Positions 3,005 to 13,708 of a stretch of 15,502 bases of DNA are shown here, one piece after another. Within the stretch, counting starts at the first letter, position 1. The number at the start of each line of letters is the position of its first letter. The notes beneath the pieces are model-generated. The model was given only the letters and a program-made list of their open reading frames with translations, ran no database searches and was not told the DNA's origin. The position numbers were made by a program, and so were the translations under genes. The stretch comes from Oscillospiraceae bacterium (GTDB lineage: Bacteria; Bacillota; Clostridia; Oscillospirales; Ruminococcaceae): contig CAADWC010000132.1 in the NCBI GenBank assembly GCA_900752625.1, positions 1-15,502 on the forward strand. Reading direction: 5' to 3'.

Positions 3005-5563
3005 ATGAGTAGATTTAATAAATCAATATATCGGTATGCATTTATAGCTTTCTGTACGATAATGCTGTCAATACTGTACTTTGGGATATCAGCAGCTGCC
3101 GCAGTAGATTATGACAGTCTGAGTTCTGATGTTCTGGAGCATATCAAGGTCAGAACAGGATTGCGCAACTTAATACGCGCAGCACAATTTGCAATACTCA
3201 AAACGATAGCAATGATAGTCGATGAGTTCGATGAAGCTATTGATGTCATAATGCACTTGAATTTATATGATTTGCTTGACGGCAAATTCAGCTGGGACTT
3301 GCAGCCGCTTGCATGGGCAGTGCTGTCGCTGTTTATAATAATCGCAGGGTTTACTTTGATGGTATTTGCAGATAAGCTCAAAATAACAGATACCTTAAGG
3401 AGCATTATAATCTCGTCAACAATAATAGTAGCTTTTCCTACGCTTATATCCGCATTTTCAGACCTCAAAGATAAAGGCGTAGATACAGTAGACGCATTGT
3501 CCTCAGATATTAACCAGGTCGATGAGAATGGTTTGGTTTATGGCTTGGGAGATACACTATTATCATCAAATATTGTAGCAATAACTGATGTAGACGGTCA
3601 GCTGCATTATTATAATGAAGTTAAAGATAGATATCCCGGGTCGATCTATCACATCAATATCAATGACTGCCTCGATAATTCTGTATGGGATAAAGAGCCT
3701 GTCGGCATTGACAGTATAGACGGTTCGCAGACGCGCTATTCTGAGCTGACTACATTAAATATGATGGATTTGCTTGGATTGAGAGCACAATATGTTGTTT
3801 ATGTCCAGGCTTTAGAAAATGATTATGGCGTTGTAGTATCAGACGGGCAATATGCGTCAGGTGACGGCAGCGCAAGAGAACCTGATTATATACAGGACGG
3901 CACACCACATTGGAACGAAGTAACAATGACCGTTGACGAATACCGCAGATATCTTATCAACCTTATATCGACTCATACAGCTGTTGTTGATGCAGGACTA
4001 CAGTCTGAAGTGGCAGCAAAGAATACTATAGAAGAAGCGCTTGAGGTCATTAAGGATATTGTTATAAGACGTTTAAATATACAACAGAATCAGTATTACG
4101 CGGCTCACGGCACAAGCACAACATATTTCTATCGTGAATTGATTACGCAAGATGATTATGAATCTATGGCGTGGTACGATCAGCTTATTACTCAGGTCAA
4201 GACATTAGGATATCCATCGGAGTACATATATGCTTTTGATATGAATTTCTGTTTTACGCTGTTTATACTGATTGTTACAGCAATCTGTCTGCTGTTTGCA
4301 GGCTTTAAGCTTGGTACAATGCTTTATGATATCCTCTTTATGTCGCTGATCGGCTCAGTTGCCGCTGCTACAGACGCGACAAGTGCAGGCAGAGCCAAAA
4401 AGATAGTAATGGAGCTTATATCATCATACACAATATTTATTGTAGTGGCTTTTGTGCTCAAGCTTTATCTGATATCTGTAACGGGTATATATAATAATAT
4501 TGATAATATCATTGCGCAGATAATACTGCTTATCGCCGGTGCAAAATTTGTTATAGACGGACCCGATATAGTAGTTAAGCTACTCGGAATAGACGCAGGC
4601 GTTAAGAGCGGCGCAGCAACGCTGACTGCAATGCACTCGGCGGCGTCTATGGTGCAGAATGTTGGTCGTACAGTAGGCAGAGTAGGCGGAACGGCACTTG
4701 CAGCGCCTTCAAAGATTGCGTCGGTAGCCGGTTCTATGTATGCCGCTGCCAATGATATAAAAGGTGCAGACGGTATTGCAGAAAAGGTCGGCGCAGCTGT
4801 TGAAAACACACCTGTAGGACAGGCTTTCAAGCAGTCCGCACTTAATAATGTACGCACAAATTCCGATTACTCGGATTATAAGGCTGGTCAGCCTGATAAG
4901 GAACATACTAGTCCTGCAAAAGTAGCAGGTAATATCGTTGGCTCTGCCGCTAAGACAGCTACTGATGTAAGTTCTGCATTAAAATCAGCAGGCAGCTCTG
5001 TTAAAAACAGTGTAGGCAGCTATTTTAATAGCATAAAAAATGCTGATGGCTTTAAAGATACCACTACATCGGTTGGTGCACCACTTAGCAAACTTGCAAG
5101 TAATGCTGTTACAGATTTTAAGGACGGATATGCTCAATCAAGAGGAGCAGCTAATAATATGCAAACTAACAATGCCGCAGCTCCTGCTCAGGCATTTGGC
5201 AGAGATGGTAAAGATGGCAGCAATGGCAGGGACGGAAAAGACGGCATTGACGGACTGAAAGGTGCTGACGGCAGAAACGGTGAAAATGCTATAGCTCAAT
5301 CGTCTGAAAAGTCAACAGCTGTTTCATCAACGGAACATTCTGAACCATCAAGCGGCAGGGGCTTTACAGAAACTGCTGATAATTATGACAGCAGCACTAA
5401 TATTGAAACTGAAATGGCAAAACCTAATGACGCAGGCAGCGGCTTCGCCCAATCAGAGCAGCGAGCTGAATCCTTGGTGGATTCCTATGCCGACAGGCTC
5501 AGACAATCGGAGCATAGCGACACATTTGCAGACAAGGAAAGAAAAGAGGAGAGTAATAAATAA
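3005..5563 (+). CDS. VirB6/TrbL-like conjugation channel membrane protein
   Basis: 852 residues; ATG at 3005 after AAAGGA. Residues about 9-33 form a signal or anchor helix ending in AAAAVD, a possible cleavage site. Hydrophobic segments follow near 103-122 and 133-152. An extracytoplasmic region (about 155-405) is acidic and Tyr-rich. A second membrane cluster lies near 412-434, 439-455, 472-493 and 501-518, and ends in VIDGPDIVVKLLGIDAGVKSG, a motif I associate with VirB6/TrbL-type proteins of Gram-positive conjugation systems (pLS20_p028-like). The tail (about 540-852) is low-complexity, rich in Ala, Ser, Gly and Asp, with a collagen-like stretch at 732-761. It should form the inner channel with the VirB3 and VirB4 homologues. 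The stop TAA shares its last base with the next ATG. The exact subfamily is from memory and not certain; the topology and context are strong. Confidence 0.8.
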   Translation: MSRFNKSIYRYAFIAFCTIMLSILYFGISAAAAVDYDSLSSDVLEHIKVRTGLRNLIRAAQFAILKTIAMIVDEFDEAIDVIMHLNLYDLLDGKFSWDLQPLAWAVLSLFIIIAGFTLMVFADKLKITDTLRSIIISSTIIVAFPTLISAFSDLKDKGVDTVDALSSDINQVDENGLVYGLGDTLLSSNIVAITDVDGQLHYYNEVKDRYPGSIYHININDCLDNSVWDKEPVGIDSIDGSQTRYSELTTLNMMDLLGLRAQYVVYVQALENDYGVVVSDGQYASGDGSAREPDYIQDGTPHWNEVTMTVDEYRRYLINLISTHTAVVDAGLQSEVAAKNTIEEALEVIKDIVIRRLNIQQNQYYAAHGTSTTYFYRELITQDDYESMAWYDQLITQVKTLGYPSEYIYAFDMNFCFTLFILIVTAICLLFAGFKLGTMLYDILFMSLIGSVAAATDATSAGRAKKIVMELISSYTIFIVVAFVLKLYLISVTGIYNNIDNIIAQIILLIAGAKFVIDGPDIVVKLLGIDAGVKSGAATLTAMHSAASMVQNVGRTVGRVGGTALAAPSKIASVAGSMYAAANDIKGADGIAEKVGAAVENTPVGQAFKQSALNNVRTNSDYSDYKAGQPDKEHTSPAKVAGNIVGSAAKTATDVSSALKSAGSSVKNSVGSYFNSIKNADGFKDTTTSVGAPLSKLASNAVTDFKDGYAQSRGAANNMQTNNAAAPAQAFGRDGKDGSNGRDGKDGIDGLKGADGRNGENAIAQSSEKSTAVSSTEHSEPSSGRGFTETADNYDSSTNIETEMAKPNDAGSGFAQSEQRAESLVDSYADRLRQSEHSDTFADKERKEESNK
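5198..5287 (+). repeat. Collagen-like Gly-X-Y coding repeat
   Basis: Ten consecutive G-X-Y triplets (residues 732-761 of the VirB6-like protein), rich in GRD, GKD, GID and GAD, each starting with a GGN codon. The codons vary (GGC, GGT, GGA), so this is kept at protein level rather than being a recent DNA slippage product. Short for a stable triple helix, and without the usual proline. Confidence 0.8.
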
Positions 5564-9690: not shown

Positions 9691-10293
9691 ATGAAGGAAG
9701 AGTTATTTATATATCCTGTGCATCAGGATAACGCCGCTGATGAGTATATGAAGATAGGCAAACAGCGCAGAAAAATGCTGCCTGTGATGCTCATAAGCTT
9801 GCTGACAGGAATCGTTTTTCTTTGTCTAAGTGACGTTTTTGATACGACATTACTGTACTATCTTGCAATAGTTTTGTTCGTCTTTTCGGCGGCTGTGATT
9901 TATGGTGCAAAAAGCTTGCACACAACAAAGTTAGTCATCAGAGCCTATGCAAGTCATATCGAACTGGACTATTATTCTTATGAATATGCAACAGTAAAAA
10001 AAATCAATGCAGCGTATTCTGATATTCAGCAAGGCTATCTGCTTGATAACTTTCGGGAAGTAACATTAGTGTTCAGAGCGGACAGCAGCTGTGTGAACGG
10101 CTATAGCCTGAATGGTGAACCTGTGGAGTGTGAGAACAAATTTGTAAGGCTGAAGCTAAACGAGCGAACACCTGAGCAAGCGTTCTTCATATATGTTGCA
10201 CCTAAGCTGTTTAAAATGCAGTTCAACAAGAAGAAGGCATTGGGGAAATATGGTGATGAAAGCGATTTCTACAACGATTGCAGCGATATATGA
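9691..10293 (+). CDS. Two-helix membrane protein, possible PH-like cytoplasmic domain
   Basis: 200 residues; ATG at 9691 with AGGAG (9679-9683) 7 nt upstream. Two hydrophobic helices, about 31-47 (VMLISLLTGIVFLCLSD) and 53-72 (TLLYYLAIVLFVFSAAVIYG), sit near the N-terminus with a very short turn between them. The rest (75-200) is soluble and beta-rich: LVIRAYASHIELDYYSYEYA, then the AYSDIQQGYLLDNFREVTLV stretch. This order, two N-terminal helices and then a beta domain with a Y-S-D-I-type strand, resembles membrane-tethered PH-like proteins, but I cannot confirm it. It is the last gene of the channel operon; only 10 nt separate it from the surface-protein gene. No function is assigned. Confidence 0.7.
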   Translation: MKEELFIYPVHQDNAADEYMKIGKQRRKMLPVMLISLLTGIVFLCLSDVFDTTLLYYLAIVLFVFSAAVIYGAKSLHTTKLVIRAYASHIELDYYSYEYATVKKINAAYSDIQQGYLLDNFREVTLVFRADSSCVNGYSLNGEPVECENKFVRLKLNERTPEQAFFIYVAPKLFKMQFNKKKALGKYGDESDFYNDCSDI

Positions 10294-10321
10294 CAGCTGA
10301 TAACATCCAGTAAATATATGC

Positions 10322-10350
10322 TTTAGTGGTAAACAAATCAAACGTACAAT
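10322..10350 (+). promoter_or_regulatory. Candidate sigma-A promoter for the first RHH gene
   Basis: TTTAGT (10322-10327) and TACAAT (10345-10350) are separated by exactly 17 nt. The -10 matches the consensus in 5 of 6 bases, the -35 only in 3 of 6. Transcription would start about 7 nt later, just before the RBS AAAGGAGAG (10364-10372). It lies in the 86-bp gap between the channel operon and the RHH gene. Confidence 0.4.
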
Positions 10351-10379
10351 GAAAATTTTAAACAAAGGAGAGATGTATT

Positions 10380-10694
10380 TTGAAGCTTACTATTCGAGAT
10401 ATGCAAGATGAAATATTAGAAAAATTAGATAAATTGGTCATAGAAAAACATTATAATTCTCGTAATCAATTAGTAGTAGATATTCTATCGAGATATGCTG
10501 CCGTCAATGATGAGCTTTATGTTCAGGCTCTGAATGTAGTAGTCAGAACAATGGTGCGCGAGCAGCTTGATAAGCTGTCGGAAACATCTGACAGTTGCCT
10601 GCGGTCAATAGAGATTGCAGCCAAGAGATTATCGAAGGCAGCACAAAAATTAGATATGTATATTACAGATGATTTTATGTATGACGGAGAATGA
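10380..10694 (+). CDS. Ribbon-helix-helix DNA-binding protein (relaxosome or partition type)
   Basis: 104 residues from a TTG at 10380. TTG is chosen because AAAGGAGAG lies 7 nt upstream and because the first beta-strand (KLTIRDM) starts right after it; the first in-frame ATG would remove that strand. The N-terminal 45 residues fit the RHH fold: strand LTIRD, helix QDEILEKLDKLVIEKHY, turn NSRNQ, helix LVVDILSRYA. The rest (46-104) is helical and charged and could mediate oligomerisation. RHH proteins bind operator repeats as dimers; family members act as relaxase accessory factors (MobC type), plasmid partition adaptors (ParR type) or repressors (CopG/Arc type). The neighbouring phased repeat array is its obvious candidate target. 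Position before the relaxase operon favours a relaxosome role. Confidence 0.7.
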   Translation: MKLTIRDMQDEILEKLDKLVIEKHYNSRNQLVVDILSRYAAVNDELYVQALNVVVRTMVREQLDKLSETSDSCLRSIEIAAKRLSKAAQKLDMYITDDFMYDGE

Positions 10695-10798
10695 CTTTTT
10701 TCTTTCTGACAGAAAAAATATCTGATATAGTGTAACTGTTCGTCCTGTTGGAAAGAGCATACCAAAGCCATATTTTGCTTTAAAAGGGATAATGTTTA

Positions 10799-10902
10799 GT
10801 ATTATTTTGTAATACTTAGTGTTATTCCGTGTTATTTTTAGTATTATTCCGTGTTATTTAATATTATTACGTAATATTTTGAGTATTATTTTGTGTGTAG
10901 GT
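10799..10902 (+). repeat. Phased array of ten ~10-bp repeats
   Basis: Units begin at 10799, 10809, 10819, 10829, 10841, 10851, 10861, 10871, 10883 and 10893. The best units read GTRTTATTYY (GTATTATTTT, GTGTTATTCC, GTGTTATTTT, GTATTATTCC); two are GTAATA variants, the seventh begins with A, and the last is degenerate. Spacing is 10,10,10,12,10,10,10,12,10, so each set of four occupies 42 bp, equal to four helical turns at 10.5 bp. The two 42-bp blocks (10799-10840 and 10841-10882) agree at about 31 of 42 positions. Strand-symmetric elements are embedded, e.g. GTATTA and TAATAC (10799-10815) and the palindrome TATTACGTAATA (10865-10876). This pattern fits cooperative binding of an RHH or iteron-binding protein along one face of the DNA. 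Confidence 0.85.
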
Positions 10903-10966
10903 GACATCACTTTTTTTAGTATTAAAACTCGGTACTACCGAGTTTTCCAATGAGGTGTGATGTCAC
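10901..10966 (+). repeat. Outer inverted repeat enclosing a hairpin (oriT-like)
   Basis: GTGACATCAC (10901-10910) and its exact reverse complement GTGATGTCAC (10957-10966) are 46 bp apart and enclose the hairpin at 10924-10946. The left arm abuts the end of the repeat array. Inverted repeats next to accessory-protein sites are typical of origins of transfer. Confidence 0.65.
10924..10946 (+). repeat. 10-bp perfect inverted repeat with 3-nt loop
   Basis: AAAACTCGGT (10924-10933) and ACCGAGTTTT (10937-10946) are perfect reverse complements around loop ACT. The four trailing T are part of the stem and are followed by CC, so it is at most a weak terminator. Its place inside the outer inverted repeat suggests a relaxase recognition hairpin or operator. 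Confidence 0.75.
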
Positions 10967-10970
10967 ACCT
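10953..10970 (+). promoter_or_regulatory. 18-bp palindrome, possible operator
   Basis: AGGTGTGA (10953-10960), centre TG, TCACACCT (10963-10970): 8-bp perfect arms with a 2-bp centre, the form of a dimeric repressor site. It shares bases with the right arm of the outer inverted repeat, so both structures cannot form at once. It lies about 54 bp upstream of the second RHH start. Confidence 0.5.
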
Positions 10971-11023
10971 TTATGCTCATTCACAAGCCACAATAAAGAA
11001 CCTAAATAGATTAAGGAGGAAAT

Positions 11024-11467
11024 ATGTATAAAGTAGCAAAGCGATTAAGCATATCCGTTGCTAAGGACACTCTTGACCTTATTGAACAGCTTATTGATAT
11101 GGGGATATGCAACAGTACATCGAACCTTGTCAGCATAATGGTAAGACACGAGGCAGAACGCTGTGGTCTGATAGAGCCGATTAAAGGTAGTACTCAGCCG
11201 ACAACAGATTCCTCGGCAGTTGACGCGTTGTCAAAAAAAGTAAGCGAGTGCATTGCGATCACCAAAGCTATTGATGACAAAGCATATGTGCTGCTGGATT
11301 GCTTTAACAGTTTTTTGCAATACGCAGAGCCGGACAGCTCTGTTGAATATGCACCGATGGACGTCAAGTTAAACAAGTCAAATATTGACAATCAGCACGA
11401 ATATGTCAAAAAGTCAAACCAAAGTCTTAAAGAGCGCAAGCACATTGAGAAGCTTGGGAAGATATAA
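11024..11467 (+). CDS. Second ribbon-helix-helix-like protein, relaxase accessory candidate
   Basis: 147 residues; ATG at 11024 with AAGGAGG (11013-11019) ideally placed. The N-terminus fits an RHH fold: strand KRLSISVAKD, helix TLDLIEQLIDMGICN, then STSNLVSIMVRHEAERCGL, with the conserved S-x-x-x-L-V-type turn also seen in the neighbouring RHH protein. A Ser/Thr-rich linker (about 55-65) leads to a helical section (VDALSKKVSECIAITKAIDD) and a basic C-terminus (YVKKSNQSLKERKHIEKLGK). It ends 27 nt before the relaxase gene, the usual position of a MobC-like accessory protein that binds oriT and helps melt the nick region. Little overall similarity to the first RHH protein is visible beyond the fold. 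The role is inferred from context. Confidence 0.6.
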   Translation: MYKVAKRLSISVAKDTLDLIEQLIDMGICNSTSNLVSIMVRHEAERCGLIEPIKGSTQPTTDSSAVDALSKKVSECIAITKAIDDKAYVLLDCFNSFLQYAEPDSSVEYAPMDVKLNKSNIDNQHEYVKKSNQSLKERKHIEKLGKI

Positions 11468-11494: not shown

Positions 11495-13708
11495 ATGCCG
11501 GCAATAGTATATATGCAGTCCTTTAAATACGAATGGAATATCGGAGGGTATGACTTCTACAGCTATATGGAGCGACCTGAAGCATTTGAATCGAAGCTGC
11601 ACAACAGTCAGGGGGATATGTATTATGACTACCTCGAATATATGCGAAATGATGAAAAATCAGACGGTATTTTTAACGCTGAGAAAGACCATATATCCCA
11701 GGAAGAAATATCCAGATATCGCAACTTAGAAACGGTTTCCCAGACACGTGGCTGTCCTAAGTACCTGGGAGTCATATCTTTTAACAACGACTATCTCACT
11801 GAGAATGGATTGATGACTCCTGACGGCAGACTTGATCACAGTCGTCTGAAGGACTACGCCCGTAATGGAATCAACGCACTGATAAACGAATCAAAAAAGC
11901 TTAACGCCAATAATGTATATTGGACTGCTGCGATCCACGAGAACACAGACAACATACATATACACTATCAGCTTTGTGAATATAACCGATTAGAAGACCG
12001 CAAGAAACTATATAAGGACAAGGATATGCTTGAACTGTCTGCCTTTGAGGCGCTAAAATCCAAAATGGTAAGTCAGATATCACCGCAGACGGAACGTCTG
12101 AAACGTATCACTCAGCTTGAAAGGGGAATAGTACACTCTGATATGTCTGCAGCTTTTGGACGCTGTGAGAAGAAAATATTAGAACTATATTGCAAGCTGC
12201 CGGAGGACAAGCAATGGCAGTATAACCGTCCGAAAATGAAACCGTATAAGGCTGAGATAGACAATGTAGTTCGCAGTATTATCGAGAGCGATGAGAAGCT
12301 GTCAGAGCAGTACAAGGCTTTTGAAAAAGAGCTTGAGGAATATGACCGGTATAACTTGTATCTCTATGGTAAGCGTAAGGATATACCGACCCGCGAGCGC
12401 AGCGCAAGCTTTAACCGGCGCCGTGACTTCTATAGCAGAGCAGGAAATGCTTTGCTGAACCGCTTAAAAGAACTGGATTTTGAGCCATCGGCAGCGCCGT
12501 ATCCGTCAGAAGAAGAAAACAGCATACCCGAGGACGTTGCTGATATATCAGAATTTCTTTTTTCTGAAGGATTGGATACTGATGACTTATCTGAGCCATC
12601 GGCAGCGCGATATCTGTCAGAAGAAAAAAGCAAAGCTAATGTATATATGCGATGGAATGCGTTATACAAAAAGGCCTGCAAGCTGCTCTATGATAAAGAC
12701 TCAAAGCTTGAAGAATATCAGGAAGCCGAACAGCTGCTGCTTATTGAAGCACAGCGCGGTAATGTGCTTGCTATGCACGATTTAGGCAAGCTTTACTCCA
12801 CTGAAACGCTGGGAACGAAAGACGAAAAAAAATCATACGCATATTACTGGGACGCATTGCAGGGCTTTTTAAAAATTGAGCCTACAATGCAACAGAAAAT
12901 CAAACCTTATGTCCAATATCGAATAGGAAAGATGTATTACTATGGATTGGGCACCGAGCAGGACTATGTAAAGTCTTTTGAATGGTTTGAGAAATCAGCT
13001 ATGCAAGGCAATAAGTTTGCACAGTACAGTCTTGCAAATCAATACTATTACGGAAACGGCGTTGAGAAGGACTTGTCCCAGGCATTTAAGTGGTATAACA
13101 AAGCTGCGGAACAGGGACAGCCTTATGCGTTATATGCTGTCGCTCAGATGTACAGCAAAGGAGAGTACGTTGCCAAAGATAATGATGCAGCCCAGAGATA
13201 TTACCGGGACGCATTGTCAGGTTTTTTTGCGCTTGAAAAAAAGGGGCAGGCTGATGACAATTTACTGTACAAGATAGCCACGATGTATTATAAGGGGCTT
13301 GGCTGCGATAAAGACCATGACGCTGCAGAAAAACATTTTATGTTGTCGGCTAACAAGAATAATACCTACGCTCAATTATCTCTGGGCATCTTGAAATATC
13401 ATCAGCTGAAAAAAACTGAAGCAAAGGAATGGCTGCAAAAATCAGCTGACAACGGCAATGAATATGCCGCAGAGATATTGAAAAATATTAGTAAACCATC
13501 GGCGCGATCTGTCAGGAGAAAAAAATTTGATCGCACTAAAGCACATTATGTAAATTATCAGTTGCGTAGTATGTTGAACGAATTAACATATGAGTATGAG
13601 CGACATTTAAAAGAGTTGCAGCGTGATTATGAGTATGAACAAGAACGTAGTCTTGGTATCAATAGTGAATACGATTATATAGATATAAGTGAAAGTATGA
13701 AAAGGTGA
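11495..13708 (+). CDS. MobP-type (MobA/MobL-like) relaxase with C-terminal Sel1 repeats
   Basis: 737 residues; ATG at 11495 with CAGGTG upstream. Relaxases nick oriT and stay bound to the 5' end through a Tyr. The metal-binding motif is clear: HENTDNIHIH, with H148, H155 and H157. The N-terminus has two Y-x-Y-M-type motifs, FYSYMERPEA (about 21-30) and DYLEYMRNDE (about 45-54), like the Y-[IL]-x-Y-[MI]-x-R-DE motif of Firmicute MobP2/MobP3 relaxases; which Tyr is catalytic cannot be told. Residues about 200-330 are helical and charged. A linker at about 330-390 has duplicated PSAA-x-Y-x-SEE units. Residues about 415-663 contain several Sel1-like (TPR-related) repeats, e.g. YRIGKMYYYGLGTEQDYVKS and YSLANQYYYGNGVEKDLSQA, probably for protein contacts. 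The basic C-terminus is rich in Tyr and Glu. It is followed after 4 nt by the coupling-protein gene, whose RBS overlaps its end. Confidence 0.87.
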   Translation: MPAIVYMQSFKYEWNIGGYDFYSYMERPEAFESKLHNSQGDMYYDYLEYMRNDEKSDGIFNAEKDHISQEEISRYRNLETVSQTRGCPKYLGVISFNNDYLTENGLMTPDGRLDHSRLKDYARNGINALINESKKLNANNVYWTAAIHENTDNIHIHYQLCEYNRLEDRKKLYKDKDMLELSAFEALKSKMVSQISPQTERLKRITQLERGIVHSDMSAAFGRCEKKILELYCKLPEDKQWQYNRPKMKPYKAEIDNVVRSIIESDEKLSEQYKAFEKELEEYDRYNLYLYGKRKDIPTRERSASFNRRRDFYSRAGNALLNRLKELDFEPSAAPYPSEEENSIPEDVADISEFLFSEGLDTDDLSEPSAARYLSEEKSKANVYMRWNALYKKACKLLYDKDSKLEEYQEAEQLLLIEAQRGNVLAMHDLGKLYSTETLGTKDEKKSYAYYWDALQGFLKIEPTMQQKIKPYVQYRIGKMYYYGLGTEQDYVKSFEWFEKSAMQGNKFAQYSLANQYYYGNGVEKDLSQAFKWYNKAAEQGQPYALYAVAQMYSKGEYVAKDNDAAQRYYRDALSGFFALEKKGQADDNLLYKIATMYYKGLGCDKDHDAAEKHFMLSANKNNTYAQLSLGILKYHQLKKTEAKEWLQKSADNGNEYAAEILKNISKPSARSVRRKKFDRTKAHYVNYQLRSMLNELTYEYERHLKELQRDYEYEQERSLGINSEYDYIDISESMKR
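12482..12517 (+). repeat. Short dispersed repeat, copy 1 (in relaxase linker)
   Basis: Starts GAGCCATCGGCAGCGCCGTA and ends with GTCAGAAGAAGAA. It closely matches copy 2 at 12593-12628, 111 bp further on and in the same frame; both encode PSAA-x-Y-x-SEE. Confidence 0.7.
12593..12628 (+). repeat. Short dispersed repeat, copy 2 (in relaxase linker)
   Basis: Starts GAGCCATCGGCAGCGCGATA and continues TCTGTCAGAAGAAAAA. It lies just before the Sel1 repeat region. Thirteen bases of its right part (TCTGTCAGAAGAA) also occur at 2909-2921, after the VirB2-like gene. Confidence 0.7.
13496..13525 (+). repeat. Short dispersed repeat, copy 3 (after the Sel1 region, frame-shifted)
   Basis: CCATCGGCGCGATCTGTCAG followed by GAGAAAAAAA. 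It is copy 2 with a 3-nt and a 2-nt deletion, so the second half is read in another frame (PSARSVRRKK instead of PSAARYLSEEK). Similarity at DNA level but not protein level points to a nucleotide repeat rather than a protein motif. Confidence 0.55.

Follow-up and report, generated by a model that had tools for sequence, protein, structure and literature searches.

A helically phased repeat array beside the oriT region of a MOBL-type conjugative element, proposed to be a docking region for a predicted ribbon-helix-helix protein

The window (the whole stretch of DNA analyzed here, 15,502 nucleotides) is part of a conjugative element, with genes for SSB, a TOPRIM primase, a pLS20_p028-type membrane protein, a VirB4 ATPase, two ribbon-helix-helix (RHH)-type proteins and a MobL relaxase, along with a candidate TrbC/VirB2-like pilin whose match fell below the cut-off. 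The pLS20_p028-type protein (3005–5563) carries a collagen-like Gly-x-y stretch near its C-terminus (residues 732–759), its Pfam Collagen match (E = 0.0006) being under the cut-off. A predicted membrane-type protein of 200 aa (9691–10293), possibly belonging to the transfer module, precedes the first RHH gene (RHH1), and similar-looking ORFs of 189–219 aa, as judged by eye, precede RHH1 in the related loci L001, L004, L006, L009, L027 and L036.

Between RHH1 (10380–10694, plus strand) and the second RHH gene, RHH2 (11024–11467, plus strand), the interval 10694–11024 holds, in order, a repeat array, a nested inverted repeat, CCTTTATGCTCATT (from 10968) and a ribosome-binding site. The relaxase gene follows on the same strand (11495–13708). 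The outer arms of the inverted repeat are GTGACATCAC and GTGATGTCAC (10901–10910 and 10957–10966) and enclose a perfect inner hairpin, AAAACTCGGTACTACCGAGTTTT (10924–10946); neither feature is assigned to a strand, and both recur in relatives. When the stretch 10895–10990 was folded as single-stranded DNA the nested hairpin was obtained (−17.8 kcal/mol, z = −5.2), and none of 200 shuffles was equally stable. The oriT core, ACCTTTATGCTCATTCA (10967–10983, plus strand), includes at 10971–10978 the motif TTATGCTC, found at the same place in relatives. Here CTTTATGCTCATT (10969–10981) contains TTATGCTC exactly and matches 9 of 11 positions of CTTATGCTCTT, the oriT core reported for five MOB-MG plasmids, pWBG749 among them (PMC4652767). 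The nick is presumed to lie in or near ACCTTTATGCTCATTCA.

Given that the array adjoins a nested hairpin and TTATGCTC, which lies inside the published pWBG749-type core, and that a MobL relaxase gene follows, we identify the window, on its sequence, as holding the oriT region of a MOBL conjugative element. The features by which MOBL/MOB-MG-type oriTs are recognized were found in the window, namely a core after an inverted repeat, a 5' hairpin, and a place upstream of a MOBL relaxase gene that is accompanied by RHH genes. Rfam at gathering thresholds gave no match in the window. A terminator role for the inner hairpin was dropped, as a terminator scan found none, and replication iterons were also dropped, there being no Rep protein among the window proteins scanned.

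The array (10798–10892, plus strand) was delimited by its unit steps, by Tandem Repeats Finder and by self-match against shuffles. It consists of nine units of about 10 bp (consensus GTRTTATTYY) that start at 10799, 10809, 10819, 10829, 10841, 10851, 10861, 10871 and 10883. An earlier note on this DNA had counted ten repeats; the nine are real, whilst only 5 of 10 positions of the proposed tenth (10893, GTGTGTAGGT) agree with the consensus. The steps from unit to unit are 10, 10, 10, 12, 10, 10, 10 and 12 bp, which bears out the claimed 10-10-10-12 spacing with 42 bp for four units, and both 12-bp steps end where the note had placed a 2-bp extension, before 10841 and before 10883. The units pair as blocks of 20 and 22 bp that together make the 42-bp super-repeat. 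Their consensus scores (out of 10) are 10, 7, 10, 10, 10, 9, 8, 9 and 10, the 7 belonging to the second unit (10809). Two of the five blocks are imperfect dyads with 7 of 9 pairs (19-mers at 10798 and 10860), and the remaining three form 3, 4 and 1 of 9 pairs. Tandem Repeats Finder reported two periods, one of 42 bp (2.3 copies with 79% matches and no indels) and one of 22 bp (4.5 copies with 75% matches and 7% indels). Self-match of the intergenic region peaked at a lag of 42 with a score of 28, which was reached by none of 200 dinucleotide shuffles; in a second run the best of 300 shuffles scored 19.5.

At 10.5 bp per turn, the best fit among the periods tried, all nine units fall inside an arc of 51 degrees (resultant 0.941, compared to 0.693 at 10.0); for equal steps of 10 bp the computed drift is 137 degrees. 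The suggestion that the longer step is a helical correction keeping all units on one face of the DNA therefore holds in the window element. The number of consensus matches was unremarkable for AT-rich DNA (8 observed; mean 3.5 and maximum 9 in 1000 shuffles), and the significant feature of the array is its register, not how many matches it contains.

Relatives were collected mainly through the relaxase. Alignment of MobL gave 10 loci in genome contigs, and whole-genome searches with the relaxase domain of the window gave 11 of 297 genomes in the family of genome G001 (three already known), one of 391 in its class (G001 itself) and 5 of 29 in the genus of G004 (Ruminococcus albus AR67). The pattern CGGTNYTACCG-N18-45-TTATGCTC, run over 396 genomes, matched in 12 of them, comprising six known loci, one new oriT (L075) and five without the hairpin. 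In viral contigs the same pattern gave 24 stretches, none with a nested hairpin when the flanks were inspected by eye, and two protein-based scans of viral contigs gave no confirmed relative. A first protein scan of genome contigs gave no match; plasmids gave no match by DNA-level search and none with the RHH2 protein.

TTATGCTC was found near the relaxase gene in 20 loci, window included. The order RHH1, array, nested hairpin, TTATGCTC, RHH2, MobL was present in 16 of these 20, again with the window, the RHH2 genes being assigned by position and by eye. RHH1 homologues in the 15 other loci occupy the same position and share 24–34% identity with window RHH1. The four loci left out (L022, L031, L032 and L033) were excluded because no RHH1 gene was seen upstream; their relaxases stand at 30–32% identity, like that of L008, which was kept, and in L032 and L022 the core is on the opposite strand from the relaxase gene. 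L031 and L033 were moved to a second set; L022 and L032 entered no set. No core was found in L002, L003 and L010, where the upstream DNA extends to at most 701 bp. As their inner hairpin 11 of the 16 loci carry CGGTACTACCG or CGGTTTTACCG; by eye, 11 of 14 Bacillales plasmid loci carry TAGGCNNNGCCTA, and the pLS20-like loci have CCGCACTGCGG. In L001 two small ORFs of 104 and 76 aa (3333–3880) sit between the oriT core and RHH2, so this gap tolerates insertions; the 76-aa ORF carries CxxC pairs, and the pair is perhaps toxin-antitoxin-like cargo.

The second set comprised 20 loci that were not used in forming the idea, some of their sequences being known before measurement: 17 plasmid loci with a core (of 18 fetched, pLS20 included), L031, L033 and L075. 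The plasmids come from Priestia, Bacillus, Lysinibacillus, Planococcus, Exiguobacterium and Lactobacillaceae, and were taken as 13 of the 60 rows of one listing (mostly soil, food and laboratory species) and 4 of the 20 rows of another. One of the 18 plasmid loci, L090, has no TTATGCTC within 1300 bp upstream. L089, a near-copy of pLS20, was omitted from the statistic, leaving 19 loci, and true independence is lower than this number since L043 and L087 (both pLS20-like), L081 and L083, and L084 and L085 are alike. Measurement in this set was on a fixed 190-bp stretch, not on the interval from RHH1 to the hairpin.

A repeat array lay between RHH1 and the hairpin in all 16 loci with this gene order. 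Its self-match was beyond all 200 shuffles in 14 of them and was reached by 1 of 200 in L037 and by 5 of 200 in L030, and the array of L028 is weak with an irregular period. In the DNA just upstream of the array, which is mostly RHH1 coding sequence, no lag reached threshold in any of the 16. The case that the earlier note had named as refuting, in which neighbors are intact and the array or its spacing is lost, was thus absent from these loci, with the reservation that L030 and L037 are weaker and L028 irregular. In the second set 13 of 19 loci had a significant array and six (L038, L087, L088, L091, L031 and L033) had none.

The strongest lags were 42 bp in the window, 44 in L001, 43 in L004, 32 in L005, 33 in L006, 32 in L007, 22 in L008, 64 in L009, 32 in L027, 55 in L028, 42 in L029, 63 in L030, 32 in L034, 22 in L035, 33 in L036 and 42 in L037, so that the array step across the 16 loci is near whole helical turns, usually 22, 32 or 42 bp. 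For the smallest strong lags the mean cosine was 0.81 at 10.7 bp, a value reached by none of 20,000 random period sets. When the window was dropped and one locus was kept per RHH1 cluster (n = 10), 54 of 50,000 sets reached the observed fit (2–69 over thresholds of 0.4–1.0). Both the rule (smallest lag with half the top score) and the null (periods uniform over 15–66 bp) were of our choosing, and the period results were stable over thresholds of 0.4–1.0. The second set gave a best period of 10.8 bp (2 of 20,000 sets; 0–5 of 50,000 over the thresholds). The helical value of the family, 10.6–10.7, is slightly above 10.5.

Relatives restore phase otherwise than the window does. By eye, half-sites are 8, 11 or 12 bp apart and are then followed by a step of 14–31 bp; wherever a short lag shows, the half-sites are 8–12 bp apart, and phase is therefore restored by the following step, the 12-bp step of the window being one way of doing so. 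The units themselves differ among most elements: GTATGAC/GTATGAA in L004 and L035, GTATATCC in L009, TGTATAGCAC in L006, CGGTAAAGTGTATTTACC in L034, TTATTTAAG in L036, TGATATCA in L005 and GTATGGCA in L007. GC-rich phased units such as GGGGACG and GTCGCCA occur in the second set (L081, L082 and L083), so phased AT tracts are not the point. The comparison of unit spacing with unit sequence, which had been proposed as a check, thus came out with phase conserved across relatives and sequence not. Plain tandem-repeat slippage was considered and dropped, as alone it does not account for periods of whole turns in arrays whose units are unrelated.

Conservation of helical register over sequence looks to be new, repeat-bearing oriTs with RHH partners being already known; periodic short direct repeats have reportedly been described at oriT2 of pAD1. 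The literature searched, mostly outside subscription journals, yielded no statement of a conserved helical phase without conserved sequence, and the word "helical" is absent from the main texts of PMC4652767, PMC8136818 and PMC5675868.

RHH1 (104 aa) is a predicted RHH protein and the proposed binder of the array, on the basis of a weak Pfam match, an AlphaFold model and its conserved position. Against Pfam RHH_1 it scored 15.5 bits, below the cut-off of 20.5, and its best Pfam row, EF-G-binding_N, was likewise under its own cut-off; 3 of 18 RHH1 homologues matched RHH_1 at E ≤ 0.01 (best 9.5e-07). The model (mean pLDDT 82.1, pTM 0.38) has helices at residues 10–22, 28–43 and 45–50 and a long helix at 53–102. 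It shows two helices in RHH geometry, and residues 1–51 superpose on the RHH domains of NikR, CopG, PutA and Arc, with no Foldseek E below 0.001. Residues 1–9 are extended and were not assigned as a strand in this model, which is of a monomer only. RHH1 is accordingly predicted from the model to have two domains, an RHH-like part (1–51) and a single long C-terminal helix (53–102). TraM, PcfF and ParR were absent among the fold matches listed, an absence that carries no weight. Comparison with pLS20 Aux1 gave no BLASTP match, and an hhalign alignment (probability 57, E = 1e-4) covers the RHH part only.

RHH2 (147 aa) is a putative RHH protein assigned by its position between oriT and the relaxase gene, and its start is preceded by an AGGAGG-type ribosome-binding site. 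Its match to RHH_1 was weak (E = 0.018, below the cut-off) and its structure model, of low confidence (pLDDT 62.7), was too poor for use. RHH2 occupies the position of pLS20 Aux2 and pWBG749 SmpO and equals Aux2 in length (147 aa); against Aux2 it gave no meaningful BLASTP match and an hhalign probability of 6.8. The relaxase is of MOBL/MobP2 type with C-terminal Sel1 repeats, and matched PF18555 with 221.5 bits (cut-off 28.5) and NCBIfam MobP2 with 192.2, under the cut-off of 200. It shares 26% identity with pLS20 MobL over the relaxase domain (E = 2e-30). Residues Y24, H148, H155 and H157 are invariant among 17 aligned sequences, and Y24 aligns with pLS20 Tyr26, the reported active-site residue (PMC5313138). 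Among the best 120 of 1991 homologues of MobL, lengths run from 411 to 1240 aa and the repeat domains vary. Close metagenomic protein relatives were found for RHH2 (78% identity), RHH1 (80%) and the relaxase (88%), and probably lie on one contig, since each has a longest contig of 14,882 bases.

To assign the array to a protein we relied on covariation across the 16 loci. RHH1 similarity predicted array similarity (Mantel 0.315, p = 0.0028; with either strand allowed 0.374, p = 0.0003), and did so given RHH2 (0.271, p = 0.0054 in the partial test) and given the relaxase (0.275, p = 0.0096). Taken alone, the relaxase gave p = 0.099 with the array (0.048 on either strand). Similarity in the outer right arm of the hairpin went with that of the relaxase (Mantel 0.266, p = 0.0105) and not with that of either RHH protein (p = 0.54 and 0.27). 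The covariation is modest, comes from as few as 16 loci as raw p values among 18 tests, and leans partly on the close pairs L001–L004 and L009–L035; RHH2 and relaxase starts were placed by a script, and some of the proteins (for example in L006, L009 and L035) have surplus or questionable residues at the N-terminus. No array match was stronger than that between L004 and L035, where the RHH1 proteins are only distantly alike (0.23); both arrays have GTATG half-sites in an 8+14 bp arrangement. We read this likeness as convergence or exchange of arrays.

That RHH2 rather than RHH1 binds the array, as proposed for pLS20 Aux2, we consider improbable, though it has points in its favor. Binding of Aux2 in pLS20 is reported to follow the TGTGCAT repeats in the 5' part of oriT (PMC5675868), and in the Planococcus plasmid locus L039, which has an array, a single small gene separates oriT from the relaxase gene. 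Taken by itself, RHH2 shows a weak correlation with the array as well (0.17, p = 0.065; p = 0.022 on either strand). However, once RHH1 is held fixed, RHH2 does not predict the array (p = 0.61), and SmpO of pWBG749, encoded at the same position as RHH2, is reported to bind at two sites, ossA and ossB, the latter located in the right arm of the inverted repeat IR2 (PMC8136818). These comparisons favor, without proving, an arrangement in which RHH1 would sit on the array and the relaxase on the hairpin.

We therefore propose, with considerable confidence, that auxiliary proteins dock on this array as part of a MOBL-type oriT, the array being a set of cooperative RHH1 sites on which a one-faced complex would position the relaxase. 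The gene for RHH1 lies directly before the array, and the half-sites are most likely occupied by RHH1 dimers or tetramers. As each site comes round to the helix face of the one before, the bound protein would form a continuous, one-sided nucleoprotein complex, with the long C-terminal helix of RHH1 holding it together. The probable effects of this complex are to bend or unwind the neighboring oriT and to recruit or position the MobL relaxase, which would recognize the nested hairpin and nick inside TTATGCTC or at most some tens of bases away from it; RHH2 would be a second auxiliary factor, nearer the nick. Binding, bending, recruitment and a need for the array in transfer are suggested here by analogy with pLS20, pWBG749, pCF10 and TraM. 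An additional role as an autoregulatory operator for the RHH2 and relaxase genes is compatible with this proposal.

The earlier note had left a centromere, an operator and an oriT accessory array side by side. The last is now strongly favored, as the array abuts a MOBL-type oriT and this layout is found in 16 loci. An operator in the main, through which RHH1 or RHH2 would autoregulate the RHH2 and relaxase genes and which would have no direct part in DNA processing, is in our view unlikely. RHH proteins are classically repressors, and the array does stand upstream of RHH2 with its ribosome-binding site; MobC of RA3 is reported to autoregulate as well as to stimulate transfer (PMC4175270). Yet 131 bp, the oriT hairpin included, separate the end of the array from RHH2, and a promoter scan of 10200–11100 found no sigma-70-like site on the plus strand and two on the minus strand (mean of shuffles 4.9). 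The constant place of the array beside hairpin and core in 16 loci fits an oriT better, and the upstream repeats of pLS20 and pWBG749 are reported to be needed in cis for transfer.

That the repeats act by DNA shape alone, as helically phased AT-rich tracts curving the DNA beside oriT, is a good deal less probable. Whilst the array is AT-rich with its T tracts in phase, and a static bend has been measured in the pLS20 oriT (PMC5313138), the GC-rich phased arrays of L081, L082 and L083 and the tracking of RHH1 by array sequence argue against it. Least probable of all, and very doubtful indeed, is a parC-like centromere with RHH1 as ParR analog and the array as partition site. RHH1 does precede the array, and ParR is an RHH protein that binds iterated sites, tandem and in register. 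But no ParM/ParA-like ATPase was found among the 11 window proteins scanned (from a 15.5-kb window of an incomplete element), the array is surrounded by genes for a T4SS, SSB, a primase and a relaxase, and pLS20 has its gene for actin-like Alp7A (63288–64463) about 29 kb around the circle from oriT (motifs at 27588–27793). The comparison that the earlier note drew with ParR on parC is thus unsupported by context, the window proteins scanned including neither an actin nor a ParA.

A broader reading, which we offer tentatively and put a little short of an even chance, is that MOBL arrays are defined by helical register and not by sequence. The units would turn over together with RHH1 as a private identity tag, and a one-sided RHH1 filament of element-specific length and period would load the relaxase, an arrangement shared by Clostridia, Bacillales and Lactobacillales plasmids. 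The surviving constraint would then be that every site comes back to the same face after 2, 3 or 4 turns. As repeats vary between elements, oriTs are hard to find by sequence; if phase is the conserved property, TTATGCTC, the nested hairpin and a phased array together could locate oriTs and transfer partners in Firmicutes elements. If true, this bears on how RHH auxiliary proteins build the relaxosome in Gram-positive bacteria.

Among known systems, the pWBG749 family of staphylococcal conjugative plasmids shares with the window the core motif, an adjoining branched hairpin, repeats upstream and an RHH gene before the relaxase gene. Its oriT has the hairpins IR1–IR3 before the core and the accessory repeats AR1–AR3 upstream, with SmpP as relaxase and SmpO as RHH protein (PMC4652767, PMC8136818). 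Mobilization was undetectable for oriT clones without all three accessory repeats, and AR1 or AR2 could be removed singly without effect (PMC4652767). Unlike the window, it has three inverted accessory repeats instead of a nine-unit phased array, and the published text available describes no RHH gene upstream of oriT.

In pLS20 of Bacillus subtilis both RHH proteins, Aux1 and Aux2, are reported to be essential and to bind oriT, and an oriT without its 5' 100 bp, in which two of the three repeats are lost, was non-functional; the repeats are attributed to Aux2, whose gene adjoins that of the relaxase, and not to Aux1 (PMC5675868). pLS20 carries TTATGCTC at 27745 and has a spacing of 21 bp between two of its three TGTGCAT copies. 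The published sequence after which the nick signal drops off, GAATCGGGGGCCGG, starts at 27781, 36 bp after the start of TTATGCTC, so that the mapped pLS20 nick lies outside TTATGCTC and TTATGCTC need not be the nick itself. pLS20 resembles the window in its homologous relaxase, in two small RHH proteins encoded upstream of it and in direct repeats upstream of TTATGCTC, but differs in having both aux genes downstream of oriT and only three repeats (steps of 21 and 55 bp).

F-like TraM/TraY and pCF10 PcfF work with other relaxase families. Like the predicted RHH1 they combine an RHH N-domain with a C-terminal stalk, and sites in oriT, bending and relaxase recruitment are reported for them (PMC6514445, PMC12117103). 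In contrast to the window, they use few sites and not a long array. ParR/parC centromeres and other RHH proteins on iterated sites share with the window an RHH protein and tandem sites in register; in the window, where no partition ATPase was seen, the array lies instead in oriT.
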